DNA of 64,000 bases from Pseudomonadota bacterium (GTDB taxonomy: Bacteria; Desulfobacterota; Desulfobulbia; Desulfobulbales; JAGXFP01). Both the position numbers and the translations under genes were made by a program. This document shows, piece by piece, positions 13,874-30,477 of this stretch. Location: positions 1-64,000 of the forward strand of contig JAHJAA010000020.1 of NCBI GenBank assembly GCA_018814305.1. Reading direction: 5' to 3'. Within the stretch, counting starts at the first letter, position 1. Each line of letters starts with the position of its first letter. Under the pieces are notes generated by a model that saw only the letters and a list, made by a program, of their open reading frames with translations, did no database searches and was not told the origin of the DNA.

Positions 13874-15037
13874 TCAGTTCTCATTCCTCCGGATGAACGT
13901 TGGGGTATCCAATCGGTCTTCATCGTGGCTCACATCAAGAAACGGATTTTTTCGAGGTCTGAGATTGGAAGAAGATCTCCCGTCATGTCCGTCTTTATCC
14001 TGAAACGGCAAGGACTGAGCCACAGTTTCACGTCTATGCAGAGAGGCAACTTTAACCGGTAAGGCTTCAAAATCAGGCTCACCGTTGATGCCGGTGGCGA
14101 TCACTGTTACTCGCAAGGCATCCCCCAGACTCTCATCAAAGGTTACCCCTAGAATAATATTTGAATCCTCATGAACTTCCTCGTAAATCCGGCTGGTGAT
14201 CTCAGTGACTTCAGCCATACTCAACAGCTCTTCCCGGGAGGAGACATTGACCAGGACACCCTTAGCTCCTTCAATACTGATATCCTGAAGAAGTGGGCTG
14301 GCTATGGCCATATTAACGGCGTCAGCCCCCCGATTTTCTCCCCGGCCAACCCCAGCTCCCATCAGGGCAGGACCCATTTCATTCATAATAGCCCTGACAT
14401 CGGCAAAATCAGGATTTATATAGCCGGGCAGATTGATGGTATCAGTGATTCCTTTGACTGCCTGAACTAGAACATCATCGGCCATCTTCATCCCATCGAT
14501 AAACCGACCGTTCTTACCGGAAAGGGAAAGCAATCGGTCATTGGGAATGGTGATAATTGTATCAACGTGTTTCTTGAGGAGCTCCCAACCCTTATTGGCA
14601 TTCTTCATCCGGGTCCGGCCTTCAAAGGAAAAGGGTTTGGTAACAACCGCCACGGTCAGAGCGCCCATTTCCTTACTGATTCTGGCCACCACAGGGGCAG
14701 CTCCAGTGCCTGTTCCTCCGCCAAGACCGGCGGTAACAAAGACCATATCGGAACCGTTGATTATATTACGAATCTCTTCAACACTTTCCTCAGCCGCCTC
14801 GCGTCCACGTTCGGGATTCGCCCCGGCCCCGAGACCCTTGGCAGAGATCGGCCCCAATTGCAGGCGGATGTCCGCCCTGGAATTCTCCAGAGCCTGGAGG
14901 TCGGTATTGGCAGCAATGAACTGAACTCCACGGATGAGATTCTCCTCCATGGTATTAATGGCGTTCCCGCCACCTCCGCCGACCCCAAAGACCTTGATCA
15001 CGGCACGAGAATCTTTTTCAGCAAATGTAAACGACAT
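13874..15037 (-). CDS. ftsZ: Cell division protein FtsZ
   Basis: FtsZ is the tubulin-like GTPase that forms the Z ring. The 387-residue product has GVGGGGGNAINTM at the N-terminus. The tubulin signature GGGTGTGAAP lies near residue 105 and the T7-loop segment NPDFADVRAIM near 210. A variable linker ends in the C-terminal peptide LDTPTFIRR that binds FtsA. I chose the ATG at 15037 (MSFTF) because AAGGGG lies at the right distance; an in-frame ATG 6 codons upstream has no clear site. It is the last gene of the dcw cluster, 250 bases after ftsA, with a large hairpin between them. Confidence 0.97.
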   Translation of the reverse strand: MSFTFAEKDSRAVIKVFGVGGGGGNAINTMEENLIRGVQFIAANTDLQALENSRADIRLQLGPISAKGLGAGANPERGREAAEESVEEIRNIINGSDMVFVTAGLGGGTGTGAAPVVARISKEMGALTVAVVTKPFSFEGRTRMKNANKGWELLKKHVDTIITIPNDRLLSLSGKNGRFIDGMKMADDVLVQAVKGITDTINLPGYINPDFADVRAIMNEMGPALMGAGVGRGENRGADAVNMAIASPLLQDISIEGAKGVLVNVSSREELLSMAEVTEITSRIYEEVHEDSNIILGVTFDESLGDALRVTVIATGINGEPDFEALPVKVASLHRRETVAQSLPFQDKDGHDGRSSSNLRPRKNPFLDVSHDEDRLDTPTFIRRNEN

Positions 15038-15241
15038 TCCAGACCCCTTCTTCATCCAACGCCAATGGTCGCATCATGGAGCAAAAAGCAAACATTCTCG
15101 CAAAGCCACGCCAATCAAAGTCTAAATTACCGAACGACTTCTCATGAATTCAACCTGGACCTCATCGGTATCGTGTCTTTCTTACGATAGTTGCAATCAT
15201 AAACTAAAACAGTTCAGGCATCCATAAATTTTTTAAAGAAT

Positions 15242-15304: not shown

Positions 15305-16537
15305 TCAGAACGATCGCCGAAACCAATCTCGCATCCGATTTGACAATCGCCCGAAGAGCCGACTCTCACTTTCCTTTAGTTTCCTGACGGGCTCATGCTT
15401 CATCCCGAAAAAAATCAACCCAAGACCTGTGGCATACTGAGGAGTTGCCACCAGGTCAGTTAATCCCTCAACCTTCCGCGGATACCCAAGCCGGACCGGC
15501 AAATCAAAGATCTGTTCCGCCAGATCGACCATGTTGGCCAGGAGGCACGTCCCACCTGTCAAAACCAGGCCCCCGTTGATCAGCCCGATAAAGTTACTCT
15601 CTTCAAGCTCCCGCTTAATCAGACTGAACATCTCCTCGACCCGGGGTTCAAGAATCTCACCCATGACCCGCTGGGAAATACGCCGGGGCTGCCGCCCACC
15701 AAGGCTGGGGACCTCTATGGCCTGATCCTTGTCGATCAGAGCGGCCAGGGCAGAACCATATTTTTCTTTGAGAAGTTCCGCCTCTTTCAAAGGAGTGCGC
15801 AACCCGATGGACAGATCATTGGTCAGATTATGCCCACCCAAACCCAGTACATGGGTGTGCTTGATGGTCCCTTCAGTAAAAATCGCCAGATCGGAGGTCC
15901 CCCCCCCGATATCAAGGAGACCGATGCCCAACTCCATCTCTTCCCGAGTCAAGACGGCTTCAGCTGAAGCCAGTGGCTCCAAAACCACATCACAGACATC
16001 AAGACCGGCCCGGTTACAGCATTTGACGATATTCTGCACTGCGGCTACCTGGCCGGTAACAATATGGACCTCAGCCTCCAACCGAACCCCGGTCATGCCC
16101 AAGGGGTACTGAATACCATCCTGATCGTCCACCATAAACTCCTGGGGGAGAACATGGAGAACCTCCTGGTCGGTGGGGATATGGACTGCACTGGCTGCTT
16201 CAATGACCCGATCAATATCATCCTGACAGATCTCGGCATGACGAATGGGCAGCAGGCCCCGGCTGTTAAATCCCTTGATATGACTGCCGGCAATCCCGAC
16301 ATAGACCGCGGTGATTTCGCACTTGGCCATCCGTTCAGCTGCTTCTACCGCCTTCTGGATCGACTCCACCGTGCTTTCAATGTTCACCACCACCCCCCGC
16401 CGCATTCCCACGGAAGGATGCACGCCGACCCCGACCACCTTCACCTGATCTTTTAAAACCTCGGCAACCACTGCACATATTTTAGTGGTACCGATATCAA
16501 GCCCGACGATTATTTCTCCACGATCATGTGATGCCAT
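15305..16537 (-). CDS. ftsA: Cell division protein FtsA
   Basis: FtsA is the actin-like ATPase that anchors FtsZ filaments to the membrane. The 410-residue product starts with the phosphate-1 motif IVGLDIGTTKICAVVAEV. It contains the SHS2 (1C) region and the phosphate-2 motif LLDIGGGTSDLAIF near residue 208. The adenosine motif LTGGTCLLANM lies near 330. The C-terminus RMRDWFRRSF is an amphipathic, arginine-rich membrane-targeting helix. It follows ftsQ after 139 bases. Confidence 0.96.
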   Translation of the reverse strand: MASHDRGEIIVGLDIGTTKICAVVAEVLKDQVKVVGVGVHPSVGMRRGVVVNIESTVESIQKAVEAAERMAKCEITAVYVGIAGSHIKGFNSRGLLPIRHAEICQDDIDRVIEAASAVHIPTDQEVLHVLPQEFMVDDQDGIQYPLGMTGVRLEAEVHIVTGQVAAVQNIVKCCNRAGLDVCDVVLEPLASAEAVLTREEMELGIGLLDIGGGTSDLAIFTEGTIKHTHVLGLGGHNLTNDLSIGLRTPLKEAELLKEKYGSALAALIDKDQAIEVPSLGGRQPRRISQRVMGEILEPRVEEMFSLIKRELEESNFIGLINGGLVLTGGTCLLANMVDLAEQIFDLPVRLGYPRKVEGLTDLVATPQYATGLGLIFFGMKHEPVRKLKESESRLFGRLSNRMRDWFRRSF

Positions 16538-16676: not shown

Positions 16677-17516
16677 CTAGTCAACTATCGACCGCTCAAA
16701 ACCCACCAGGACCTTCTCCGACAGGTATTCCATATCAATTGAAGCTGTTATAGCGAAATCCCGACGTTTATACAACCTGCCCAAAACCCGGGTAAGTTGC
16801 TGGTACTTCTTCCGCACGGAACCGGTTCCGAATTTGATGGGAAAAGGACGATCCACCAGAAAGACCGTCATCTCCCGCTCTGGTGAAAAATGAACTTCAG
16901 AAATATTAAGCGCCATTAAATTGGGATTTCCTAGCCCGGCGAGATATAAAAATTGCAAGGCCTCCTCCAACTCCATTTCGCGCTCAGCGCATCCCTCCCT
17001 ACAATCGACAATCCCGCTGATCACCGGGAAGTCAAGGTCATCCCGATCCCCAGCCGGGGCAAAAACCGTACCCTGACGATCAATATAATGCAAGCCGTCC
17101 GCCTTATTGATCAAGGCCACCGGGTTCCGTTCCTCCACCGTAATGTCCAGACGATCCGGCCAATCTCTTTTCACCTGGGCCTTTTCCACCCAAGGGTGGG
17201 ACTCCAGTCGAGCTTTCACCTGGTCCGGATCAATGGCAATAAGATTACTATGAATATCCACCCCTGAAAGCAACCGCAAACTCTGGAAATCAATCCGTTT
17301 ATTCCCATTGATTCCCACATCCACGATCCGAAAAAAGGGGGCACGGGAAAGTCCTTGATACATCAACACCCCTCCTCCGATCAAAGCCAGAACTGCCAGC
17401 CCCCCCCCAACCAGCATGACGAGACCCCGACGCCAGACCTTACCCCGGTCATCTCCTCCTCGGCGTCCCTGCCACCTCTTTCCGATTCTGCCGCCCCTGC
17501 CGGACCTCATTCCCAT
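16677..17516 (-). CDS. ftsQ: Cell division protein FtsQ
   Basis: FtsQ is the bitopic scaffold that links early and late divisome proteins through FtsL/FtsB. The 279-residue protein has a basic cytoplasmic N-terminus of about 30 residues and a membrane span (about 33-55). The POTRA domain starts at FRIVDVGINGNKRID and the beta domain contains HPWVEKAQVKRDWPDRLDI. The start overlaps the murB stop by 10 bases, indicating translational coupling. The ddl gene often found here is missing. Confidence 0.93.
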   Translation of the reverse strand: MGMRSGRGGRIGKRWQGRRGGDDRGKVWRRGLVMLVGGGLAVLALIGGGVLMYQGLSRAPFFRIVDVGINGNKRIDFQSLRLLSGVDIHSNLIAIDPDQVKARLESHPWVEKAQVKRDWPDRLDITVEERNPVALINKADGLHYIDRQGTVFAPAGDRDDLDFPVISGIVDCREGCAEREMELEEALQFLYLAGLGNPNLMALNISEVHFSPEREMTVFLVDRPFPIKFGTGSVRKKYQQLTRVLGRLYKRRDFAITASIDMEYLSEKVLVGFERSIVD

Positions 17517-18445
17517 GGTCGCACCGTCAGCATATGAATTTCCGGTTCAAGACTGATACCGTGACGGGTCAGAACCTGATCCCGAACCTCATGCATCAGA
17601 GTAATCACATCGGTGGCCGTGGCCTTGCCGGTATTAACGATGACATTGGCATGCTCCTCAGAAACCATGGCCCCACCGACCTGCAGTCCTTTCAAACCAG
17701 TAGTCTCAATCAATTTACCGGCATACCCTCCGGGAGGATTTTTAAAGATGGATCCAGCATTGGCCATCCCCCAGGGCTGCCGCCCGCGCCGAGCCCGCAT
17801 CAATTCCCGACAAGTCTCCCTGAGTTGATCTCCGTCGCCTTGATCCAGAACGAGACGAGCACTTAACAAAATCGACTCAGGTGGCTCCCCCCAGGACCTG
17901 TAGGTAAAAGAAAGTTGATCCTGGGTCCGAGTATGAACTTCACCGGCTCCATCCAAAATGGTAACCAGGTCAATCACATCCTTCATTTCCCGGCCGATGG
18001 CTCCGGCATTCATCACCACGGCGCCACCCAGGGTGCCGGGTATTCCGACCACAAACTCCAAACCGGCCAGCCCTTTTTCCAGTGACCAATTTAGAAGTCG
18101 TCCCAGACGGCAGCCAGCCTCAACCTCCAGTCTTACAGCCTCCCCCGCTTCATTGACCATCCGAATAGCTCCATACCCCGAGCCCATGACCAGAATGGCG
18201 CCATGATATCCCTCGTCGGGCACCAGCAGATTGCTGCCCTGACCAATCACCCGCCAGGCGAAACCTTCGGCCGAGAGACCGTTGGTAATCCGTACGATTG
18301 AATCACTGTCGGTCGGTGCCAGCACCGCCCAGGCCTCACCACCCACTTTCAAGGTGCAATAGTCTGCCATGGGGGCATCCCACCGGACCTGCCCCGACCA
18401 CAAACCCATTAAACACTGCTTAATTTTTTCCCGATCGTTGTTCAT
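17507..18445 (-). CDS. murB: UDP-N-acetylenolpyruvoylglucosamine reductase MurB
   Basis: MurB reduces UDP-GlcNAc-enolpyruvate to UDP-MurNAc using NADPH and FAD. The 312-residue protein has FAD-domain motifs TLKVGGEAWAVLAP and RVIGQGSNLLV. The central segment is GIPGTLGGAVVMNAGAIGREM. The C-terminal domain has NAGSIFKNPPGGYAGKLIE, in which Ser is the proton donor as in type II MurB. The C-terminal HANVIVN motif is intact. It lies 15 bases after murC and overlaps ftsQ. Confidence 0.96.
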   Translation of the reverse strand: MNNDREKIKQCLMGLWSGQVRWDAPMADYCTLKVGGEAWAVLAPTDSDSIVRITNGLSAEGFAWRVIGQGSNLLVPDEGYHGAILVMGSGYGAIRMVNEAGEAVRLEVEAGCRLGRLLNWSLEKGLAGLEFVVGIPGTLGGAVVMNAGAIGREMKDVIDLVTILDGAGEVHTRTQDQLSFTYRSWGEPPESILLSARLVLDQGDGDQLRETCRELMRARRGRQPWGMANAGSIFKNPPGGYAGKLIETTGLKGLQVGGAMVSEEHANVIVNTGKATATDVITLMHEVRDQVLTRHGISLEPEIHMLTVRPWE

Positions 18446-18460: not shown

Positions 18461-19849
18461 TCAACTTGATTCATCACCAAGCAACTCCAAAATGATATCG
18501 CCAAACTGCCAGACATTACCAGCTCCCAAGGTCAACACCACATCTTCCGGCCGCAAAAGCGCCACAACCCGGCTGGTTAGCCCCGAAGAATCCCTCTCCA
18601 ACAAGGCATGCCGATGCCCATGCTGTTTGATTCCCTCCAAGAGGGCCTCACTGTCAACCCCGGGGATGGGAACCTCACCAGCCGAATAGACCTCGGTCAA
18701 TACCAAAATATCCGCGTCATGGAAGGCGGTACAAAATTCTTTAAACAGTCCCTGGGTCCGACTGTAGCGATGGGGCTGAAAGATGACCACCAATCGCCGC
18801 CCAGGCCAGACGTTGCGAAGAGCTGCAAGGGTGGCCCGAACCTCCGTGGGATGATGCCCGTAATCATCCACCACCGTGACCCCACCCTTTTCGCCCTTCA
18901 CCTCCAAACGCCGATGGACCCCGGAAAAGCTGGCCAGGGCCTCGGCTATCTCCGGAAAGGAGATCTCCAACTCGACCCCAACCGCCACGGCGGCCAAGGC
19001 ATTACATACGTTATGGAGTCCGGGCTGCCCGATGGTCACACTCCCCAGCAAGGTTTCTCCACCATGGACCTCAAAATGGGTTACAAACCCCTCACTGGTG
19101 ATGGCCCGCGCCTGAAAATCCGCCTGGGAGGTTAAACCGTAAGTGATGATCCTCTTCCCGATTTTAGGCAACAACTCGGCAATCCGAAGATCATCGAGAC
19201 AGACGATTACCGCCCCGTAGAAGGGTATTTTCTCAATAAATTTAAGGAAGGCATCCTGAACCTCCTCAATATTATGATAATAATCCAGATGCTCCAGATC
19301 GATGTTGGTCACTACTTCAAGGACAGGAGAGAGTTTCAAAAAGGAGCCGTCACTCTCATCGGCCTCGGCCACCAGGAATTGTCCCTGACCAAGCTTGGCG
19401 TTGGTACCAAAGCCGTTCACCCGACCACCGATCACTACGGTGGGATCAAGGCCGGCCTGGGCTAAAAGCCAGCCAATCATCGAGGTCGTTGAGGTCTTAC
19501 CGTGACTGCCGGCTACGGCGATGCCAAACTTATTTAAGCGCATCAACTCGGCCAGCATCTCGGCCCGAGGGATCACCGGAATATGCTGATCCAGGGCGGC
19601 GACGATTTCCGGATTATCCTGGCGGACTGCGGTAGAAACGACCACCACATCGGCGCCAGTCACCCATTCCGCCTGATGGCCTCCATGGATGACCCCGCCA
19701 AGTTGAGTAAGGCGCTGGGTAATATCAGATTCCTTCAGATCGGAGCCGCTGACCCGATATCCCAGATTGAGTAAGACCTCGGCAATACCGCTCATCCCGA
19801 TCCCGCCGATCCCCACAAAATGGACGTGCATATTTTTTTTCTTATACAT
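18461..19849 (-). CDS. murC: UDP-N-acetylmuramate--L-alanine ligase MurC
   Basis: MurC adds L-Ala to UDP-MurNAc in the cytoplasm. The 462-residue protein has the N-terminal nucleotide motif [17 protein letters not shown]. The ATP loop is [17 protein letters not shown] near residue 112. The central [10 protein letters not shown] motif and the C-terminal [10 protein letters not shown] motif characteristic of MurC over MurD/E/F are present. Its ATG overlaps the end of murG by 8 bases. An in-frame ATG 6 codons downstream is an alternative start. Confidence 0.96.
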
Positions 19850-20957
19850 CGCTCACCCCTCCCAGGGTCAAACACTCCGCCACAATCGTGTCGGTGGCCC
19901 GGGGCATTGCCAAGCCCCGGAGGCACTCCGCCATCCGGGTCCTTGCTTCATGATTGGCCAGCAGTTGCATCACCGTTCCCGCCAATTGCTCTGCCGTCAG
20001 TTCGTTTTCCAAAAACATCAAGGCACCGCCACCCGCCACGACATATGCTCCATTTTTCTCCTGGTGATTATCGGCTGCAAAAGGATAGGGGATCAAAATC
20101 GCCGGACACCCCACCAGGCATATTTCAGCGAGACTTGTGGCCCCCGCCCGGGATATCACCAAAACTGCCTGCTGATAGAGCGAGGCCATATCGGTAAAAA
20201 ACGGGGCCACCGTCGCCTTGATTCCTGCCAGCTTATACTTGTTACCCACCTCTGCAGCATCGGTGCTACCGGTCTGATGAATTACCCGAAAACCTGGGGG
20301 CAGTTGCTCACGAGCGCCGACCAAGCCATCACTCACCAGCTGATTTACTCGACGGGCCCCCTGACTCCCTCCCAGGACCAGCAAAACCAGCTCAGAGGGG
20401 GCATTGCTCGTGTCAGAGCGAATTTCCGCAATGGACTCACGAATCGGATTCCCGGTGAGAATTGTTCGATTCGCCGGAAAATATTCCTCACTCCCCGGCA
20501 GGGATATAAAAATCCGCTCAACAATTCGCCCCAACAGCCGATTGGCCAATCCCGGCACCGAATTCTGCTCGTGGATACAAGTGGGAATACCCAAGAGTCG
20601 AGCAGCCACCAGCACCGGCCCAGTCACATACCCACCCACCCCCAACACCACCCGAGGAGCAAATCCCCGGAGAATCCGTTGAGCCTGCCAAACCGCTTTC
20701 GGCAGTTGCCATAAGGCTGTGAAAATCCCGGACAAGGACTTTCCCTTAAGACCCTGACACCGAATGGCCGCCGTTTGAAATGGATGCCCGCCCAACACAT
20801 CTCGATCAACCTGCCGCTCAGTTCCGATAAACAAAATTTCGGTCCCGGGCCGCTCCCGCATCAAGGATGCGGCCACGGCAATCCCGGGAAAGAGGTGCCC
20901 ACCAGTTCCCCCACCAGTAACCACAAACCTGAGGGGTTGTCCGGGGAGATCCTTCAA
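19842..20957 (-). CDS. murG: Lipid II synthase MurG
   Basis: MurG is the peripheral glycosyltransferase that adds GlcNAc to lipid I, making lipid II at the inner face of the membrane. The 371-residue product has the glycine-rich loop [18 protein letters not shown] and the second G-loop [17 protein letters not shown]. The C-terminal donor-site region contains [12 protein letters not shown] and [13 protein letters not shown]. It starts with TTG at 20957, overlapping the stop of the 63-residue gene upstream. It normally follows ftsW, but ftsW is absent here. Confidence 0.96.
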
Positions 20958-21145
20958 TGCTCGCCCCCCCGGGGTAGCCCTGATGATAAATCCTGATGCT
21001 CATATTGATCATATATGGACCGAATGGTATCGCCATAACACTTGGGACATAGACCATGACTGATGGAGACACCTTTGACCGTCGTTCGTTTCAGCCATCG
21101 ATCCTTAATCTTCGTTTTCAGACAGACGCAACAAACAGTTTTCAT
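20954..21145 (-). CDS. Small zinc-ribbon-like protein in the ftsW position
   Basis: A 63-residue protein with two cysteine pairs, CCVCLKTK near residue 5 and SHGLCPKCYGD near residue 30, the spacing of a small zinc ribbon. The SHGLCPKC part resembles zinc-binding tails seen on some deltaproteobacterial signalling proteins. It is real rather than spurious: its ATG overlaps the murD stop (ATGA) and its stop overlaps the murG start, so it is translationally coupled on both sides. It occupies the slot where ftsW lies in nearly all dcw clusters, but it has no membrane span and cannot replace FtsW. Function unknown. Confidence 0.75.
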   Translation of the reverse strand: MKTVCCVCLKTKIKDRWLKRTTVKGVSISHGLCPKCYGDTIRSIYDQYEHQDLSSGLPRGGEH

Positions 21146-22551
21146 CCCTCACCTCCAGCCCTCATGCCAACGCTTTGCGTCAGGACCACTTCCTGAAAAA
21201 GTCGGCCCCGATGCTTATAATCGGTGAACATATCAAAGCTAGCGCAGGCCGGTGACAGCAATACCACATCGCCTGATTCCGCCAGCTCCCGCGCCAGAAA
21301 AACCGCCTCTTCCATACTCCCAGCCCGGATCACCCGGGTCACGCCACGAAATACTTGATCCATCACTTCCGAGGCTTCGCCGATCAAGACCATCGCCTTG
21401 ACCTTTTCCCGAACCAACGGGACCAAGGGTTGGTACCCCCCCCTTTTATCCCGGCCTCCGGCAATCAGGATCACCGGTCGATTCTGACCAGACAACGCCG
21501 CAACAACCGCCCCCACATTCGTGGCTTTGGAGTCATCCACATACTGCACTCCATCTGCTTCAGTAACCTTTTCCAAACGATGGGCCAGGGCTCGAAAATC
21601 ATCCAAACCCTTCTTGACCGCAGCCTGATCACATCCCATCAATCGCGCGGTCAGGATTGCAGCGGCGGCATTCCCAAGATTGGGCGCCGCTCTAAGCTGA
21701 TGACCAGCCAGGGAATATATCTCGGGTTCACCCGCCCCATACAGCGTGATCTCATCACTTGCGATCAATGCCCTGCAAGAGCCACCAGCCTTTTCTCCAA
21801 ACCGACAAAACTTACCGTGTCCTGATGAGGTCTTCACCCGGGCCTCGATTTCTGGATCATCACCATTGATCACCGCAAAATCACCTGGACCCTGGGCGGC
21901 AAAAATTGACATTTTTGAGGCGGCATAGTGGTTGAAATCCCGGTACCGGTCAAGATGGTCCGGGGTGATATTCAAAAGCACCGCCGCCTGGGGTTTAAAA
22001 TCGGGAGCAGTATCCAGCTGGTAACTGCTGACCTCGAGAACAACAAGATCTGCCACATCATTCCCAAGAAGATACGCACAGAGCGGGGTCCCCAGATTGC
22101 CCCCCACAAAAACCTTTTTCCCGGCAGCAAGAAAGATCTCACCAAGTAACTCAGTCACCGTACTCTTGCCATTGGTTCCGGTCACCGCCACCACTGGGAT
22201 GTCAAGATACCTGGCCCCGAGTCCCAATTCGCCGACGATGGGAATACCAGCCCGTCGTGATCGCTCCAGGGCTGGCAGAGTCAGCGGAACCCCCGGACTG
22301 ACCACCACCAACTGGGCCTCGGTAAACCAATCACTCTGATGACCACCGCTCTCCCAAGGAATGTCATGTTTTTGAAGCCATTGCCGAATCTCCGCCAAAA
22401 CCGCTTCGGGCCTGGCACCATCAGATACGGCAACCCGGGCTCCGGCACGCTCAAGGAAACGGACAGCGGCAAAACCGGAGACCCCCAATCCCACCACCAG
22501 GCAACGCATCCCCGGTTCGATCTTCGTCCTCCTTGATTCTTCCGGCACCAT
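21142..22551 (-). CDS. murD: UDP-N-acetylmuramoylalanine--D-glutamate ligase MurD
   Basis: MurD adds D-Glu to UDP-MurNAc-Ala. The 469-residue protein shows LVVGLGVSGFAAVRFL at the N-terminus, the ATP loop VTGTNGKSTVTELLGEIF near residue 113 and LNITPDHLDRY in the central domain. The C-terminal domain contains DDSKATNVGAVVAAL and LSPACASFDMF, both typical of MurD. I chose the ATG at 22551 rather than the TTG one codon upstream. It begins 5 bases after the mraY stop and its own stop overlaps the small zinc-ribbon gene. Confidence 0.96.
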   Translation of the reverse strand: MVPEESRRTKIEPGMRCLVVGLGVSGFAAVRFLERAGARVAVSDGARPEAVLAEIRQWLQKHDIPWESGGHQSDWFTEAQLVVVSPGVPLTLPALERSRRAGIPIVGELGLGARYLDIPVVAVTGTNGKSTVTELLGEIFLAAGKKVFVGGNLGTPLCAYLLGNDVADLVVLEVSSYQLDTAPDFKPQAAVLLNITPDHLDRYRDFNHYAASKMSIFAAQGPGDFAVINGDDPEIEARVKTSSGHGKFCRFGEKAGGSCRALIASDEITLYGAGEPEIYSLAGHQLRAAPNLGNAAAAILTARLMGCDQAAVKKGLDDFRALAHRLEKVTEADGVQYVDDSKATNVGAVVAALSGQNRPVILIAGGRDKRGGYQPLVPLVREKVKAMVLIGEASEVMDQVFRGVTRVIRAGSMEEAVFLARELAESGDVVLLSPACASFDMFTDYKHRGRLFQEVVLTQSVGMRAGGEG

Positions 22552-22555
22552 CAAC

Positions 22556-23638
22556 TCACCTGATCTTCAAGGTTGCTAGGGCGGCAAGGCCCAGGACAAT
22601 GGAAACGATCCAGAAACGGACCACCACCTTGGGCTCATGCCACCCTTTCTTTTCAAAATGATGGTGGAATGGTGCCATTAAAAAAATTCTTTTACCGCCA
22701 CTGAGCTTAAAAAATCCAACCTGCAGGATCACCGACAGGGCTTCCATGACAAAAATTCCCCCGACAATGGCCAGGAGGATCTCCTGCTTGATAATGATGG
22801 CGATCATTCCCAAACCGCCCCCGATGGCCAACGAGCCGACATCGCCCATAAAAACCTGGGCCGGGAAGGCGTTGTACCAGAGAAATCCAAGCCCGGCACC
22901 CACCATGGCCCCGCAGAAGATGGCAATCTCACCAGCCCCGGGAACATAGGGGATCTGCAGGTACGCTGAAAGACCAATATGACCAGCCAGATACGAAAAC
23001 ATCAGATAGACACTACTTGAGATTACCGTTGGACCGATGGCCAGGCCATCGAGACCATCGGTCAGATTCACCGCATTTGAGGCCCCAATGACCACGAAGA
23101 CTGCAAAGAGGATGTACCAGGGGCCCAGATCAGGTCGGATATCCTTCAGGAAGGGGAAACTAAGATGGGTATCAAAATCCGGATGGACAAACAATAGATA
23201 GCTTCCGGCCACCAGCACCCCGACTGCCTGAAACACTAGTTTACCGCGGGCACTGAGACCTTTACTGTTCCGCTTTTTAATTTTTTGAAAATCATCATAG
23301 GCTCCTATCACTCCGTACCAAAGGGTAATACCCAGCACCACCCAGACAAAACTATTGGTCAGATCGACCCAGAGTAAGGTACTAACGGTAATAGCGAACA
23401 GAATCAATACCCCCCCCATGGTGGGAACACCCTGCTTACTTATGTGGCTGGCCGGGCCGTCGGTTCTTACGACCTGGCCGATCTGTTTATCACGAAGAAA
23501 CCGAATAAACCAAGGCGAAACCAATAACAGCAAGAGAAAGGCGGTCAAGGCAGCCCCAATGGACCGAAAGGTAATATAGCGAAATACATTGAAACCGCTG
23601 ATGGTTTCATGGAGTGGATAGAGCAGATGATAAAGCAT
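22556..23638 (-). CDS. mraY: Phospho-N-acetylmuramoyl-pentapeptide transferase MraY
   Basis: MraY transfers phospho-MurNAc-pentapeptide to undecaprenyl phosphate, forming lipid I at the membrane. The 360-residue length is standard. Ten hydrophobic spans are visible. Catalytic-site motifs are [22 protein letters not shown] (the Asp pair), [25 protein letters not shown] and the cytoplasmic [13 protein letters not shown] loop. It lies 29 bases after murF. Confidence 0.97.
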
Positions 23639-23667: not shown

Positions 23668-25125
23668 TTAAACCAAACCCGGTTCTTTGAGCTGATTAAT
23701 GATGGTTTCCATTTTAAGCCCCCGGGAGCCCTTCACCAGCACCCAGTCACCAGGGGCCAGAAAGTTCTCTCGGAGCATGGTCCGAACCGCAGCCACCGCC
23801 TCGTCTTTATCGCCACAGGCCTTAACGACAGCAAGACCTCCACCCCGGGCTGCCTTTGCCATTTCCCGGGCAAAGGCACCACAGGAAAAAAGTCCATCAA
23901 ATCCCAGGTGAGCCACGGTCTCGCCCAGGACCCGGTGGGCTTCCTGACTCGCCTCACCCAGTTCCAGCATGTCCCCCAAAATCACCAGCGCCCGCCGTTC
24001 CCGACGAACCTCAGCCAGGGTTTTGAGGGCGGCCAGCATGGAAGCTGGATTGGCATTATAGGTATCATTGATCAGCCTTAAACCACCGATACCACGTACC
24101 ACCTGCAGTCGTTTATCATAGGGCACAAAGGCCGCCAATCCCCGAATGATCTCATCAGGTGTCGCCCCCGCCCCAAAGGCGAGGGCCGCGGCGGCCAGGG
24201 CATTGTTCACATTATGGGTGCCAATGCAACCCATTCTGATCCGCCGGTGTTCCCCGTTGATTCCAAGGGTAAAGGAAATTCCATCAGGGCCATGGGAAAA
24301 GAGCCTGGTGGCCCGCACCTCAGCTCGTCGATGTCGACCGAAGGTGATCCGCCGTTGGGGACAAGCTACCCCAAGCCTTTTCACCAAAGAATCATCGAGA
24401 TTGACCACCAGACAGGCATCAGGACGTACCCCCTGGAACAATTCCCCCTTGGCCCTGGCCACTCCCTCAATGCTGCCGAGCCCTGCAAGATGGGCGCTCT
24501 GAACATTGTTGATACAGGCCAGATCAGGATCGGCGATCTCGGTCAACCGGGTAATTTCCCCCGGCTGGTTCATCCCCATTTCAATCACCGCAATCGTATG
24601 GCCCGTTTCAAGCCCCAAAAGGGTCAGTGGAACTCCGATGAGGTTATTCAAATTCCCCCGGGTCGCAAGAATCTTTCGACCCGGGGTTAAAATTGCTGCG
24701 GTCATTTCCTTGACCGTGGTTTTGCCGCTACTGCCGGTGATGGCAAGCACCGAGAGGTCTGCCATCCGTCTTCGGTGATACCCGGCTAGGTCACCCAAGG
24801 CCCTGAGAGTGTCCGGGACCAAAATAACCGGAACCGTCGCCGGTGAGGAGGGCGGGGAACTCAAGATCAGACCGGCGGCCCCCGCAGCCACTGCCTGCCC
24901 GGCAAAATCAGCACCGTGGTATGTTTCTCCGGACAAGGCCAGGAAGAGATCACCGGGATTCACGGCCCGGCTATCGGTGGTGATTAGCCGAAAGTTCACC
25001 CCCCGGTTGCCTGAAACAAGCCTGCCGCCGGTAGCAGCCAGGACACGCTCCACGGACCAGCCCTCGTTCCCTCTCCGGGGCTGCCGTACTGACCTCCCGG
25101 CGATTTCAACCGATTGGTTGCTCAC
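23668..25125 (-). CDS. murF: UDP-MurNAc-tripeptide--D-Ala-D-Ala ligase MurF
   Basis: MurF adds D-Ala-D-Ala to the UDP-MurNAc-tripeptide. The 485-residue protein has the N-terminal substrate domain (ITTDSRAVNPGDLFLALSGE), the ATP loop AITGSSGKTTVKEMTAAIL near residue 127 and the MGMNQPGEI motif. The C-terminal region holds LINDTYNANPASMLAAL and LGDMLELGE, typical of MurF. It starts with GTG at 25125, overlapping the murE stop (GTGA). Confidence 0.95.
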   Translation of the reverse strand: MSNQSVEIAGRSVRQPRRGNEGWSVERVLAATGGRLVSGNRGVNFRLITTDSRAVNPGDLFLALSGETYHGADFAGQAVAAGAAGLILSSPPSSPATVPVILVPDTLRALGDLAGYHRRRMADLSVLAITGSSGKTTVKEMTAAILTPGRKILATRGNLNNLIGVPLTLLGLETGHTIAVIEMGMNQPGEITRLTEIADPDLACINNVQSAHLAGLGSIEGVARAKGELFQGVRPDACLVVNLDDSLVKRLGVACPQRRITFGRHRRAEVRATRLFSHGPDGISFTLGINGEHRRIRMGCIGTHNVNNALAAAALAFGAGATPDEIIRGLAAFVPYDKRLQVVRGIGGLRLINDTYNANPASMLAALKTLAEVRRERRALVILGDMLELGEASQEAHRVLGETVAHLGFDGLFSCGAFAREMAKAARGGGLAVVKACGDKDEAVAAVRTMLRENFLAPGDWVLVKGSRGLKMETIINQLKEPGLV

Positions 25126-26753
25126 CAGTTCACCACGAGCAGGTGACGCGCCGCCTCAACGCGATCATCAAAAGATAACCGGCGATCGCCAATGATCTGA
25201 TAATCCTCATGCCCTTTCCCGCTGATCAAAAGCACATCATCTACGCCGGCAAATCGGATGGCCGTGCCAATCGCCTCCCGGCGTGACCCCATGAGATCAT
25301 AGCCCCTGCCCCCCGAGCGCAACAGCCATTCGGCCCGCCCCCGGCTGAAAACCGGAGTACCATGATTTCCTGCCTTCGCCACCATCCCCTGCTCAATATC
25401 GGCCAAGATTGAACTTGGCTCCTCTGAGCGCGGATTGTCAGAGGTGAGCAAAACCACATCGGCTAACCGAGCAGCTATTGCCCCCATGAGGGGCCTCTTG
25501 CCCCGGTCTCGATCGCCGCCGCACCCAAAGACTAGGATCACCCTTCCTCCAGTCAGTCGCTTCAGACTCACCAACACCCGCTCCAAGGCATCCGGGGTAT
25601 GGGCATAGTCAACAAACACCCGACAGCGCTCCCCGGTACCGCTTCCCAGAACCCTTTCAACCCGACCTGGAACCATGGGCATTGCCGAGATTCCTTGCCC
25701 AAAGCTCTCCCCATCTATATCAAGGGACCGGGCAACACCGGCAACCCCCAGGATGTTCTGCAGATTAAAATCCCCCACCAACCCAGAACGACAATGGGTG
25801 TAAATATTTTCGGGGACCCCAAGCTCAAGATCAATTCCGTCAAGAGTGGAGCGATATCGAAGCACTCTGAGTTCTCCCTCGTTGAGCCCGCAGGTCACCA
25901 GATTGCAGCGGGCCTTCTCTGGCGGGAAAAAATCGTTGCTCGCTTTCAGTTCATCCCGCAATCGCGATCCCCAGTGCCCACTCTCAGATTCCGTCGCCTC
26001 TCTTTCTTCCGAGGACAAAACAATAACCGCCGAAGCCCCATCCTTCAGATATTCGGTAAATAACTTTTTTTTGGCCTGGAAGTACCGCTCCATATCGAGA
26101 TGAAAATCCAGATGATCCCGACTCAGATTGGTAAACAGCACCACATCAAAGAGCAGCCCAGCCAACCGGCCCTGGACCAGGGCATGGGAAGAGACCTCCA
26201 TGATTACATGGGTTGCTCCCCCTTTTGCCATTTGGCCAAGCAACCGAAAGAGACTCACCGGATCCGGCGTCGTCAAAGGCGCCGGCCAAACCTGATCACC
26301 GAACCGGTAATTGATCGTTCCAATGACCCCCGGCCGGTGCCCGGCCGCACACAAGACCTCTTCCAAGAGGTACGTGGAGGTGGTTTTACCATTGGTTCCA
26401 GTAATCCCAATCAGGTGCAAACTCCGCTCCGGGTGACCGTAATAGGCCGCAGCCAAACGGGCAGCAACCAAACGACTGTCTGAGACCACCACCAGGGCAA
26501 CCCCCTTGCTGGCTTCGGGCAAGCGCACCCGCTTCTCGACAATAACGGCCAAGCAGCCCCGGGCCACGGCATCACCAATATGGTCGCGACCATCCGTCTG
26601 CGTCCCGGCCAAAGCCACAAAAATATTTCCGGGTCGGACCTCTCTGGAATCAATGGCAACCCCGGTAACAATCCCCTTCCGCTTTTTATCCTGACCGATT
26701 TCGCCAAGCAGCTCCCCAAGAGATGGACCATGAAGTTTCCCTTCAGATATCAT
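25122..26753 (-). CDS. murE: UDP-MurNAc-dipeptide--meso-diaminopimelate ligase MurE
   Basis: MurE adds the third residue of the stem peptide. Motifs include DSREVRPGNIFVAL, the ATP loop GITGTNGKTTSTYLLEEV and NLSRDHLDFH. The DNPRSEEP motif predicts meso-diaminopimelate, not lysine, as substrate. I chose the ATG at 26753 (MISEGKLHG), giving 543 residues; an upstream in-frame start at 26834 would extend it 81 bases further into ftsI with a stretch unlike the family. With the chosen start it overlaps ftsI by 11 bases. Confidence 0.95.
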   Translation of the reverse strand: MISEGKLHGPSLGELLGEIGQDKKRKGIVTGVAIDSREVRPGNIFVALAGTQTDGRDHIGDAVARGCLAVIVEKRVRLPEASKGVALVVVSDSRLVAARLAAAYYGHPERSLHLIGITGTNGKTTSTYLLEEVLCAAGHRPGVIGTINYRFGDQVWPAPLTTPDPVSLFRLLGQMAKGGATHVIMEVSSHALVQGRLAGLLFDVVLFTNLSRDHLDFHLDMERYFQAKKKLFTEYLKDGASAVIVLSSEEREATESESGHWGSRLRDELKASNDFFPPEKARCNLVTCGLNEGELRVLRYRSTLDGIDLELGVPENIYTHCRSGLVGDFNLQNILGVAGVARSLDIDGESFGQGISAMPMVPGRVERVLGSGTGERCRVFVDYAHTPDALERVLVSLKRLTGGRVILVFGCGGDRDRGKRPLMGAIAARLADVVLLTSDNPRSEEPSSILADIEQGMVAKAGNHGTPVFSRGRAEWLLRSGGRGYDLMGSRREAIGTAIRFAGVDDVLLISGKGHEDYQIIGDRRLSFDDRVEAARHLLVVNW

Positions 26754-28680
26754 TGGCCACCAAAGCTGAGGACAGGACCAGTTGGCATTTTTGGTCGGCT
26801 TTAAGGGTTTCTCCAGCTCGCGGCTCTTGCTCAACCACCCTCCCGAAACCGGTTATGCCAACATCCAAGCCATAAGGCTGCAGGCGTTGTAAGGCCCGGC
26901 GCAAACTGATACCCCGGACGTCCGGCATCCTACTAAAAGTGCTGACCTGGGGTTGTGCTGCAACCTTTTCTGAAGGATTCATCACCTCAAGCCATGCCTC
27001 ATACCAGAGAGCATTCCTGTCCTCCAGGGCCTGAGCTAGCGTACGGGTTGCCTTTACCCCTGCAGCCTGAGTCAAAAGCGTAAAACCCTTCTCGAAAGAG
27101 GTCCGCATGGGTGTTTTCCCTTTACCAGAGAGAGCAGCCTCCCCCAAGACGACTATCAAACACATTCGCGGGTCCCTGCGTGGAAAGGCGCCCAGCAAAA
27201 TTGTCTGATATCTTCCGGGGGATGCCCCCTTAACCAGAACATCAACGGATTCAGGGCCATTCGGGTTTATGGCTCTTGGGTTAAGTATCTCCAGGAACAC
27301 CCCTTCCGAAGGGCGTGAATATCGTCCGAGCCAGGCTGCGGCCATCCGGCTGGTTTCCGGCCGCAAGACCTGATCGTGGAGCTCCTGATTTATCTCTCGA
27401 ACTTGACCTGTTTGGGGATCAATCACTCTATCGGCAAGGTGCGGGATGATACCTTTGCCGCCATTCATCATGATGGAAAAACCAGTAAGGAGATCCATGG
27501 CGGAAAGATCGGAAAAACGGCCGCCAACATCGTCTATTTGGTACGCCGCGGGCAAATCAAAGGAATCGCCACGGTCCCACCCGGCCCGATGGAAGTACTC
27601 CTGGGAAACGGCGTCACTAACTTCAACTGCGGTCTCCGACCGAACCAACTCCGCTGAAATCACCTGTTCTCCCGAGGAATACCACGACCCTGGCTCCGGG
27701 CCAAACGATGCCCCGTTAGCTAACTGTAATTCAGCCCGTAAAGCGGCAAAGGCCCCATGGTTCCCCGGGGCATCAGTGGTCTGTGCAGAGACCTCAGCAG
27801 ACTCTCTCCCATTCTGAAGATCCATTCGTACCGATTCCAGGAGCAACCCCGCAGCCGCTCCCACATCAAGCCGTTCCTCCATGATCTTGTTTGTCCGGGC
27901 CCCACTATCCGACTCCCACCACTGATTTGGATCAAACCCCGGCAATGAGACCAAGGCCAGAACAGAGCCGTTATTGGGATCGAGAACCGCCCCCATAGCG
28001 GTGTTCGCCTCGGTTTCCTTCACCAATCGGTGCAACAGCCTCTCAAATTCCTGTTGGACCCCAAGATCAAGGGTCAGGAGTAAATGGCCACCGGCCTGAT
28101 CGCTGGCCTGGCCCGACATCCCTCCAACCCCACGAAGTAATCCATCATAAAACGACTCAATTCCAGCCAACCCCCGTCCGTCCTTGACAAAACCAAGGAC
28201 GTGGGCCGCCTTATCTCCTTGGGGGTAGTACCGCCGGGACTCATCAACAATATAAATCCCCTCGAGATGTTTCTCCCTTACCAGCTGAACCTTCTCTTCG
28301 GGCAGATGTCGCCCCAGCCAGACATAGCCGAGTTCTCCCCGAAGATCCTGTGAAAGTTTCTCGCCGTCAACATTGAGCAATGACGCAAGCTCTCCAACGA
28401 CTTTCTCGGGATTTTCAATCTCAAGAGGACGGGCATAGATCGAACTCATCTTGACGGTAACCGCGAGCTCTCGAAAAGCACGATCAAGAATCATCGCGCG
28501 CCCCGAAGCCTCAGCAACCGGTCCCTCGCCTGCGCTCACCGCGCCCGAGCCATCTTCATTCCGGGTCAAGGGCCAACCATCCCAGATCGACCAGGCAATC
28601 CCAGTCAACAGAACCAGCACAACCGCACCCCACCGGTTTTTTCGCTTCTTTTTGGAGGAGTTCCGTCGCACCTGCTTCAT
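26743..28680 (-). CDS. ftsI: FtsI/PBP3-like protein with degenerate transpeptidase active site and PASTA domain
   Basis: Position in the dcw cluster, a single N-terminal membrane span (about residues 17-35) and a dimerisation domain starting at RAMILDRAFRELAV mark this as the FtsI (class B PBP) homologue. The pattern SRRYYPQGDKAAHVLGFV is typical of that domain, and a transpeptidase-like domain and a C-terminal PASTA domain (about 570-640) follow. The catalytic SxxK is missing. The usual PGSTFK site aligns with VGAAAG, so Ser is Ala275 and Lys is Gly278. The KTG triad aligns with KGA (484-486), and no SxN is evident. The frame is intact over 645 residues, so this looks like a maintained pseudo-enzyme rather than a decaying gene. 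The ATG at 28680 is preferred over a GTG three codons upstream. Confidence 0.85.
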   Translation of the reverse strand: MKQVRRNSSKKKRKNRWGAVVLVLLTGIAWSIWDGWPLTRNEDGSGAVSAGEGPVAEASGRAMILDRAFRELAVTVKMSSIYARPLEIENPEKVVGELASLLNVDGEKLSQDLRGELGYVWLGRHLPEEKVQLVREKHLEGIYIVDESRRYYPQGDKAAHVLGFVKDGRGLAGIESFYDGLLRGVGGMSGQASDQAGGHLLLTLDLGVQQEFERLLHRLVKETEANTAMGAVLDPNNGSVLALVSLPGFDPNQWWESDSGARTNKIMEERLDVGAAAGLLLESVRMDLQNGRESAEVSAQTTDAPGNHGAFAALRAELQLANGASFGPEPGSWYSSGEQVISAELVRSETAVEVSDAVSQEYFHRAGWDRGDSFDLPAAYQIDDVGGRFSDLSAMDLLTGFSIMMNGGKGIIPHLADRVIDPQTGQVREINQELHDQVLRPETSRMAAAWLGRYSRPSEGVFLEILNPRAINPNGPESVDVLVKGASPGRYQTILLGAFPRRDPRMCLIVVLGEAALSGKGKTPMRTSFEKGFTLLTQAAGVKATRTLAQALEDRNALWYEAWLEVMNPSEKVAAQPQVSTFSRMPDVRGISLRRALQRLQPYGLDVGITGFGRVVEQEPRAGETLKADQKCQLVLSSALVANDI

Positions 28681-28720
28681 ACCACCCACCTAGCCGTCAA
28701 TTACCCTCTTACCGAAGGCC

Positions 28721-29131
28721 CTATTCTGGACGGCCGATCTGCCCAGGACCCGGCGCAGAAAGACCATACTTTTCAACTTCAAGAGTAATCCTTTCACGGG
28801 ATGCCAATTGATCCCGGGTATGAGTCAATTGATCCCTTTCGGAAATCAACGCATTGCCACGAACAGATTCATCGGAGAGATCCTTGAGTCCATGACGAAT
28901 CTGCCAACCCATCCACGCACCCGCGGTAAGTCCCAGCACAAGACAAACAACCACCAGAACCCCACCCATTTTATGAAAAAGATGGGCGTTCCAAAGCGAT
29001 TCACCCGTTCTCCCAGGGGAATACACCCTGCCGGAAACGGGAAAAGTCTTATTTCGATAGGGCCTACCGGCTAAACCAAAACCGTTGCGGCTCGTAATTT
29101 GGCGCTGCGCGCCCTTGGGTTTTCTCGGCAT
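28721..29131 (-). CDS. ftsL: Cell division protein FtsL (putative)
   Basis: A 136-residue bitopic protein between rsmH and ftsI, the canonical ftsL position. A basic cytoplasmic tail of about 50 residues is followed by one hydrophobic span (GGVLVVVCLVLGLTAGAWMG, about 56-75) and a heptad-type coiled coil rich in Leu, Asp and Arg (ISERDQLTHTRDQLASRERI). FtsL sequences are poorly conserved, so the call rests on topology and context. The annotated start overlaps rsmH by 61 bases; a later non-ATG start is possible. Confidence 0.8.
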   Translation of the reverse strand: MPRKPKGAQRQITSRNGFGLAGRPYRNKTFPVSGRVYSPGRTGESLWNAHLFHKMGGVLVVVCLVLGLTAGAWMGWQIRHGLKDLSDESVRGNALISERDQLTHTRDQLASRERITLEVEKYGLSAPGPGQIGRPE

Positions 29132-29994
29132 TCGTCCTCCGTTGGGATCACCGGTTTTTTGGTTACAACCTTCAACCGTTGATTCCCGTTAAAAAACCGC
29201 TTCACCAACCGATCTTCCAACGAGTGAAATGAAATAACGCAAAACCGGCCACCGGGTACCAGTAACTCACTGCCGTCAGCCAGGACCCGGAGCAAATTAT
29301 CAAATTCCTGATTCACTGCGATCCTCAGGGCCTGAAATACCAAGGTCGCCACGTGGATCTTTTTGGGATGGAAGCGTCGAGGCACCGCCTGTTCGATAAT
29401 CCGAACCAGTTGCCCCGTGGTCTTCAACGGTTGAGCGCTCCTGGCCTCCACCACCGCTGCTGCAATCTTCCGGGCCTGACGCTCTTCTCCATAATAATAG
29501 AAGAGATCCGCCAGATCCGCCTCGGAGGAAGTATTCAATATATGGGCGGCAGTAGTCTCCCGCCGGTCATCCATTCTCATATCAAGGGGTTCATCCCCCC
29601 TGAAACTGAAACCACGTTCCCCCCCATCCAGTTGCAATGAAGAGAGGCCCAGATCAAGAAGAATCCCGTCAACCTTATCAATCCCGACTCCAGCAAGGGC
29701 TTCTTTGATCTCAGCAAAGTTCTTGCGCAAAAAAACAACCCGTTTGCCAAACCGGGCAAGGTGAGTCCTGGCAAGCTCCAAGGCCTTTCCATCCCAGTCA
29801 AAACCGACCAGTTTCCCGTCCGGTTCGCTCTCCATCAAAATTCGTTCGGCATGCCCACCAAGCCCAAGATTACAATCTACGTAAATCCCACCGTTCCCAG
29901 GGGAAAGGAGGGTCATCACCTGGTTGACCAGTACTGGAACATGGGACGGTTCGTACCCCTCTCTGTCAGCCATTTGGGATTCAGAAGAGTCCAT
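29071..29994 (-). CDS. rsmH: 16S rRNA (cytosine(1402)-N4)-methyltransferase RsmH
   Basis: RsmH (MraW) methylates C1402 of 16S rRNA in the decoding centre using SAM. The 307-residue protein shows HVPVLVNQVMTLL at the N-terminus, the SAM loop VDCNLGLGGHAERIL, GILLDLGLSSLQLD, the inserted domain with DMRMDDR, and the C-terminal ISFHSLEDRLVKRFF and NPRARSAKLRAA motifs. It overlaps mraZ by 14 bases. The start may be the ATG seven codons downstream. Confidence 0.96.
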   Translation of the reverse strand: MDSSESQMADREGYEPSHVPVLVNQVMTLLSPGNGGIYVDCNLGLGGHAERILMESEPDGKLVGFDWDGKALELARTHLARFGKRVVFLRKNFAEIKEALAGVGIDKVDGILLDLGLSSLQLDGGERGFSFRGDEPLDMRMDDRRETTAAHILNTSSEADLADLFYYYGEERQARKIAAAVVEARSAQPLKTTGQLVRIIEQAVPRRFHPKKIHVATLVFQALRIAVNQEFDNLLRVLADGSELLVPGGRFCVISFHSLEDRLVKRFFNGNQRLKVVTKKPVIPTEDECRENPRARSAKLRAATVLV

Positions 29995-30466
29995 TTTCCA
30001 ACAGATTCAGTTCAAAGGCATCGAAATCCTCAGGGGAAGGACGACTCTCCTCTTCCCAGGTTACCCGGTCCCAGATTTCAAAATAGGTGATCATACCACT
30101 GACCAGAACTTCTTTCCGGATCCCGCAATCATCACGCATTTTCGGGGGCAGCAGGATCCGCCCCTGCCGATCAGGCTGGCATTCCACCACCCCCCCGACC
30201 ATGAATCGGACCATTCGGATGGTGTCCGGCTGTTTTTTCCCGGTGGCCATCAGATTCATTTCCATTTCTTCCCAGCGGGCCAGGGGATAGGCCTTGAGAC
30301 AGTGGCGCCACGGGAAGACCATTAACCGCTCATCGCCATACTGATGGCGCAGGACCTCTCGAAACCTGGTTGGAATATTCAACCGGCCCTTACCGTCCAG
30401 ACTATGATCGGAGCGTCCTCGAAAATGATACACCGGGACCCGCCCTTCGCCGCCATCTACCACCAT
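29981..30466 (-). CDS. mraZ: Transcriptional regulator MraZ
   Basis: MraZ is the double-AbrB-fold repressor of the dcw operon. The first domain contains DHSLDGKGRLNIPTRFRE and the second contains CQPDRQGRILLPPKMRD, the two DxxGR repeats that bind DNA. I chose the ATG at 30466 because TAGGGG lies 5 bases upstream; a GTG two codons earlier is possible. The N-terminus is about 15 residues longer than most MraZ. Tandem TGGGN-type repeats just upstream suggest autoregulation. Confidence 0.95.
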   Translation of the reverse strand: MVVDGGEGRVPVYHFRGRSDHSLDGKGRLNIPTRFREVLRHQYGDERLMVFPWRHCLKAYPLARWEEMEMNLMATGKKQPDTIRMVRFMVGGVVECQPDRQGRILLPPKMRDDCGIRKEVLVSGMITYFEIWDRVTWEEESRPSPEDFDAFELNLLENGLF

Positions 30467-30477
30467 CAACACCCCTA

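Follow-up and report, generated by a model that had tools for sequence, protein, structure and literature searches.

In published descriptions, the FtsW-FtsI pair is conserved universally and septal wall synthesis cannot proceed without it (PMC10693644). The original prediction for the stretch of DNA analysed here (64,000 nucleotides, hereafter the window) was that a conserved but catalytically dead penicillin-binding protein (PBP) occupies the ftsI slot of the dcw cluster and that septal crosslinking is done by another enzyme. This raises the questions of whether the gene is an ftsI by descent, whether its activity has been lost beyond a single assembly, and which enzyme could build the septum in its place.

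Genomic context and domain structure

The dcw cluster of the window, apparently from a member of Desulfobulbales, was found to be collinear and encoded on the minus strand, in the order mraZ, rsmH, ftsL-like, pseudo-ftsI, murE, murF, mraY, murD, murG, murC, murB, ftsQ, ftsA and ftsZ. At its head are mraZ (29981..30472; MraZ, E 1e-26), rsmH (mraW; 29071..29994; Methyltransf_5, E 7.5e-105) and a small ftsL-like gene (28721..29131), assigned by eye and by position from its one transmembrane (TM) segment, coiled coil and C-terminal end ...KYGLSAPGPGQIGRP, the true start of which probably lies inside this ORF. The gene encoding the FtsI homologue, here termed pseudo-FtsI, is an open ORF between ftsL/rsmH and murE (26743..28689), giving 648 aa from a GTG start or 645 aa from an alternative ATG at 28680, the start adopted in the original prediction. 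It is followed by murE (25122..26834; position and Mur ligase sequence), murF (23668..25125; Mur ligase domains), mraY (22556..23638; Glycos_transf_4), murD (21142..22554; MurD-like_N), murG (19842..20957), murC (18461..19849), murB (17507..18445), ftsQ (16677..17516; POTRA_1 and FtsQ_DivIB_C), ftsA (15305..16537) and ftsZ (13874..15055; tubulin-like GGGTGTG motif in the sequence). Taken from its first start codon, the murE ORF would begin within pseudo-ftsI, and the real murE start is probably further downstream. Of the divisome genes, those for the FtsL-like protein, FtsQ, FtsA and FtsZ are still present.

Pseudo-FtsI comprises a TM anchor (helix at about residues 5–37, from the structural model and a hydrophobic stretch in the sequence), a PBP_dimer pedestal (residues 62–200; Pfam E 3e-13), a transpeptidase-like fold without active site (about 202–545) and a PASTA domain (587–640; E 7e-11). 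The membrane anchor, dimerisation domain, PASTA domain and full-length frame originally predicted are thus borne out by Pfam, the model and the open ORF. The Pfam Transpeptidase family matched over its first 38 of 299 positions only, below the cut-off, and the best NCBIfam match was of the SpoVD / PBP2B / PBP2x type, over the first 280 residues. The dcw slot, the pedestal joined to a transpeptidase fold and the N-terminal anchor are all those of an FtsI, and from synteny the protein is an FtsI orthologue by descent.

Compared with FtsI / PBP3 of E. coli and P. aeruginosa, pseudo-FtsI shares the dcw position, TM anchor, PBP_dimer pedestal and transpeptidase fold (Z about 32) but lacks all three catalytic motifs and the partner FtsW. 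Its PASTA domain, absent from FtsI / PBP3, is shared with L046 and L050, delta-proteobacterial relatives whose FtsI is intact. The FtsI orthologues SpoVD, PBP2B and PBP2x resemble it in their PASTA tail and include the best fold match; however, they keep both SxxK and a SEDS partner, and pseudo-FtsI has neither.

Loss of the transpeptidase active site

Active-site residues were placed by alignment with eight intact FtsI proteins. At the SxxK position the catalytic Ser is replaced by Ala278 and the Lys by Gly281 (VG-AAAG, 276–281), in agreement with the original prediction that both residues are gone. A scan of the whole protein found no S-x-N, as anticipated, and no K-[S/T]-G. For the proposed reading of the KTG triad as KGA, the loss itself therefore stands, and the identification of KGA at 487–489 with the old KTG strand is plausible, the alignment being uncertain there. 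A search of the rest of the sequence for an intact Ser/Lys pair found none; the sole periplasmic SxxK string (S531–K534) lies in a C-terminal helix of the model. Pseudo-FtsI accordingly has none of the features of a catalytic class B PBP, namely the Ser and Lys of SxxK, SxN and KTG.

An AlphaFold2 model (mean pLDDT 71) was built from a 20-row alignment of the window and its relatives' loci. A helix begins at residue 279, at the site of the SxxK helix. The best fold match was C. difficile SpoVD (7rcz; Z 36.0 over 409 residues). For P. aeruginosa PBP3, FtsI chains from FtsWIQBL cryo-EM structures among them, Z was about 32–33 over roughly 400–440 residues. The stretches 296–355, 380–390 and 473–490, the expected sites of the SxN and KTG elements, were modelled with low confidence, so that the apparent loss of these two elements is a claim carried by the sequence. 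Overall, the model predicts that the FtsI/SpoVD fold is kept in pseudo-FtsI and its chemistry lost.

Distribution and selection

Homologues of pseudo-FtsI were found in 37/38 near relatives and in all 145 of the 145 genomes searched in this class of sulfur bacteria (Desulfobulbia). Among 151 aligned class members, the Ser was present in two, the Lys in seven and both in none, indicating that the loss is fixed class-wide and shared by related species rather than confined to a single assembly. Relatives differ freely in what they carry at the SxxK, SxN and KTG positions; PASTA and pedestal motifs are conserved and frames are open across the class. In L031 and L034 the transpeptidase region is internally shortened, both proteins also being truncated on one side where the contig stops.

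For 25 close orthologue pairs, dN was about 0.01 to 0.11 and dS 0.06 to 1.3, with dN/dS about 0.07–0.3; the pedestal, transpeptidase-like part and PASTA each gave dN/dS well under 1. Because of this purifying selection in close pairs, pseudo-FtsI is a pseudoenzyme and not a pseudogene. Class-wide loss combined with class-wide retention supports the originally proposed conserved, dead PBP.

Absence of FtsW

In FtsW-bearing controls a second SEDS gene was located between murD and murG. The corresponding ftsW slot of the window is empty, with 184 bases separating the two genes (20958..21141, minus strand). All 38 relatives have one SEDS protein, which in the loci compared is RodA beside PBP2. Across the class a SEDS match was obtained in 139/145 genomes, two full-length copies in none and no match in the remaining 6/145; a search for a second SEDS protein across the class, closed genomes included, found none. 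Most other genomes of the phylum have two. The partner that defines an FtsWI septal synthase is thus missing: the only SEDS protein is RodA, and the dcw region has no SEDS gene.

The absence of ftsW from four Desulfobulbaceae genomes was noted in 2021, in a survey of cable bacteria and Desulfobulbus, which belong to the same bacterial group (PMC7873302). In the portion of that survey drawn on here, FtsI is treated as an ordinary septal enzyme and the loss of its active site is unmentioned, whereas the FtsI described here is dead; no report of such a loss in the group was found in the open-licence literature. Beyond the original prediction, the new elements are that FtsW is also absent and that the FtsI loss is fixed class-wide, recurs outside the class and tracks FtsW loss.

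Two further observations concern SEDS genes. In one closed genome the sole rodA (G015:C1:137697-138757) is split in two frames, through a frameshift error or because the gene is really broken. In G165 and G169, one SEDS and one PBP_dimer protein, both FtsW/FtsI-like, lie a few kb apart and no second pair was found; these genomes may represent the converse case, in which RodA-PBP2 is absent.

Coupled losses across the phylum

In other genomes of the phylum, SxxK was present in 26/26 FtsI proteins read, for 21 of which ftsW was confirmed in the same region. Every FtsW-less lineage in which the slot was read had a dead or eroded FtsI remnant there. In lineage f28, which has a single SEDS protein, FtsI is 643 aa long and dead, with ELAG at the SxxK position; the dead form of f66 measures 538 aa and lacks PASTA, and the f40 form measures 440 aa. 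Erosion is more extensive in f35 and f65, with proteins of 250–330 aa (248–267 aa in f35) that have a TM segment and PASTA and no recognisable pedestal, and in f39, with a protein of 333–340 aa that has TM and pedestal, lacks PASTA and has lost most of the transpeptidase region. These remnants outside the class retain differing parts, the pedestal in f39 and PASTA in f35, so that apart from the N-terminal anchor no one domain indicates a common interaction. FtsI death and FtsW loss therefore go together across the phylum. For f59 (G211), the rsmH search gave no match.

A tree of seven concatenated dcw proteins placed the FtsW-less genomes in two clades, Desulfobulbia with f28, f40 and f66, and f35 with f39 and f65. 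A single origin of all FtsW-less lineages was rejected on this tree (AU p 0.011 for a single clade), which came from a quick search on data of uneven composition, the tested group having been chosen by trait. PBP2 by itself gave a tree with too little resolution to address these origins. At least two losses are thus likely, though not proven.

Some details of the slots were also recorded. The f39 slot proteins, from closed genomes of 1.6–1.8 Mb (L342:3153-4172 and L343:3185-4183), keep the first strands of the transpeptidase domain. The ftsW slot (murD–murG) of f35 and f65 is occupied by a membrane protein of about 267 aa with several TM passes (L344:5088-5897, L345:5110-5910 and L346:5695-6501, all minus strand). 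Its identification as an eroded FtsW was rejected, with an hhalign probability of 0.6% and no SEDS similarity.

Remaining PBPs

The presence of PBP_dimer was used to identify class B PBPs in the window's own genome, and two proteins only were found, PBP2 and pseudo-FtsI. The candidate explanation of a second intact septal class B PBP was rejected on this basis, and the same absence supports the predicted transfer of septal crosslinking to another enzyme. Each genome of the order has one strong PF00905 match, which is PBP2; the next-best PF00905 matches largely coincide with PF00912 matches, not every row being matched, and are thus largely class A. The own genome encodes two class A PBPs whose catalytic motifs are visible, and class A PBPs occur in all 38 relatives. 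Throughout the order, the sole SEDS pair of each genome is RodA with the adjacent PBP2, and the FtsW-less lineages examined beyond the order also have PBP2.

Proposed role and alternative explanations

We consider pseudo-FtsI to be, with fair probability, an FtsI orthologue without transpeptidase activity that is kept as a non-catalytic component of the divisome, its role being presumably structural or regulatory. Under this proposal it would sit at the septum with FtsQ and FtsL as a scaffold or regulator and would recruit or gate another peptidoglycan synthase. That synthase would most likely be a class A PBP, which carries glycosyltransferase and transpeptidase domains, the alternative being RodA-PBP2 as the only SEDS/class B pair left. 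The transpeptidase site would have decayed because it was no longer constrained once FtsW was lost or its job taken over, to an extent differing between lineages.

Published precedents favour a class A PBP as synthase and pseudo-FtsI as scaffold. In C. difficile, the main septal synthase is a class A PBP in place of FtsW/FtsI, and RodA-PBP2 serves elongation (PMC10693644). Inactive B. subtilis PBP2B supports division structurally, independent of catalysis (PMC5656894), with activity supplied by another class B PBP and FtsW present (PMC12713402). In E. coli, FtsBLQ regulates the glycosyltransferase activity of PBP1b (PMC6325244). The parallels have limits. The inactive PBP2B is a laboratory mutant (PMC5656894), whereas pseudo-FtsI is inactive naturally. 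The C. difficile divisome resembles that of the class studied here in having no canonical FtsW/FtsI pair and in having RodA-PBP2 and a class A PBP available (PMC10693644); however, C. difficile keeps an active dcw SpoVE/SpoVD for sporulation, whereas the present class, which is Gram-negative, has no ftsW and a dead FtsI.

The main competing explanation is that RodA-PBP2 performs both elongation and septation, with pseudo-FtsI, FtsQ and FtsL bringing or activating it at the septum. This is possible but distinctly less probable. As the sole SEDS pair in every genome of the order, and with PBP2 kept in FtsW-less lineages outside, RodA-PBP2 is available for such a role, but the known case of division without FtsW/FtsI uses a class A PBP and leaves elongation to RodA-PBP2 (PMC10693644), and class A PBPs are equally universal here (38/38 relatives). 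The best reading would therefore remain a septal wall made by a class A PBP, with RodA-PBP2 as the second candidate, FtsW-less genomes keeping both.

The other explanations considered are less credible still. Chance preservation, within a conserved operon, of a decaying and nearly or wholly functionless relic would account for the gappy transpeptidase region and its shortening in several lineages (L031, L034, f35 and f40), but is improbable in view of dN/dS well under 1 in all pairs, the open frames and the conserved PASTA and pedestal motifs. Retention of the fold core would also be expected if pseudo-FtsI were still catalytic, using another nucleophile or another chemistry where the old site was, but the former catalytic positions vary freely and no alternative catalytic set is conserved there, making this very improbable. 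A sequencing or assembly error, a frameshift or a wrongly assigned orthologue is barely conceivable: nothing was found in favour of it, and the same loss is seen in 151 proteins of independent genomes, in open frames with dcw synteny on both sides; assembly error and pseudogene status are ruled out by the relatives, the open frames and dN/dS.

It appears probable, then, that the FtsWI synthase has been dismantled throughout the class and, as a separate event, in one or more further lineages of the phylum, with FtsW deleted and a non-catalytic FtsI still linking FtsQ/FtsL to a different septal synthase. If true, septum synthesis in an FtsZ-bearing Gram-negative group would dispense with a pair considered universal. 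This class, the group of the cable bacteria, would combine the absence of both activities with an FtsI pseudoenzyme and so represent a natural separation of the structural and catalytic roles of FtsI. It would then become directly testable which portion of FtsI is required by the divisome, and whether septal synthesis in diderms can be carried by a class A PBP or RodA-PBP2 alone.

A long class A PBP (about 1100–1190 aa; L003/L334, own genome C62:10654-13983) has a long insert between its transpeptidase boxes. Almost all relatives of the order have it, as do f31 and f44, in which FtsW is retained, and the FtsW-less f28, f35 and f39 gave no full-length match to the 1135-aa form. The 1135-aa protein was rejected as a clade-specific replacement, being also present in G167, G203 and G180, each with at least two SEDS proteins. 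In the own copy, SxxK, SxN and KTG are all visible.
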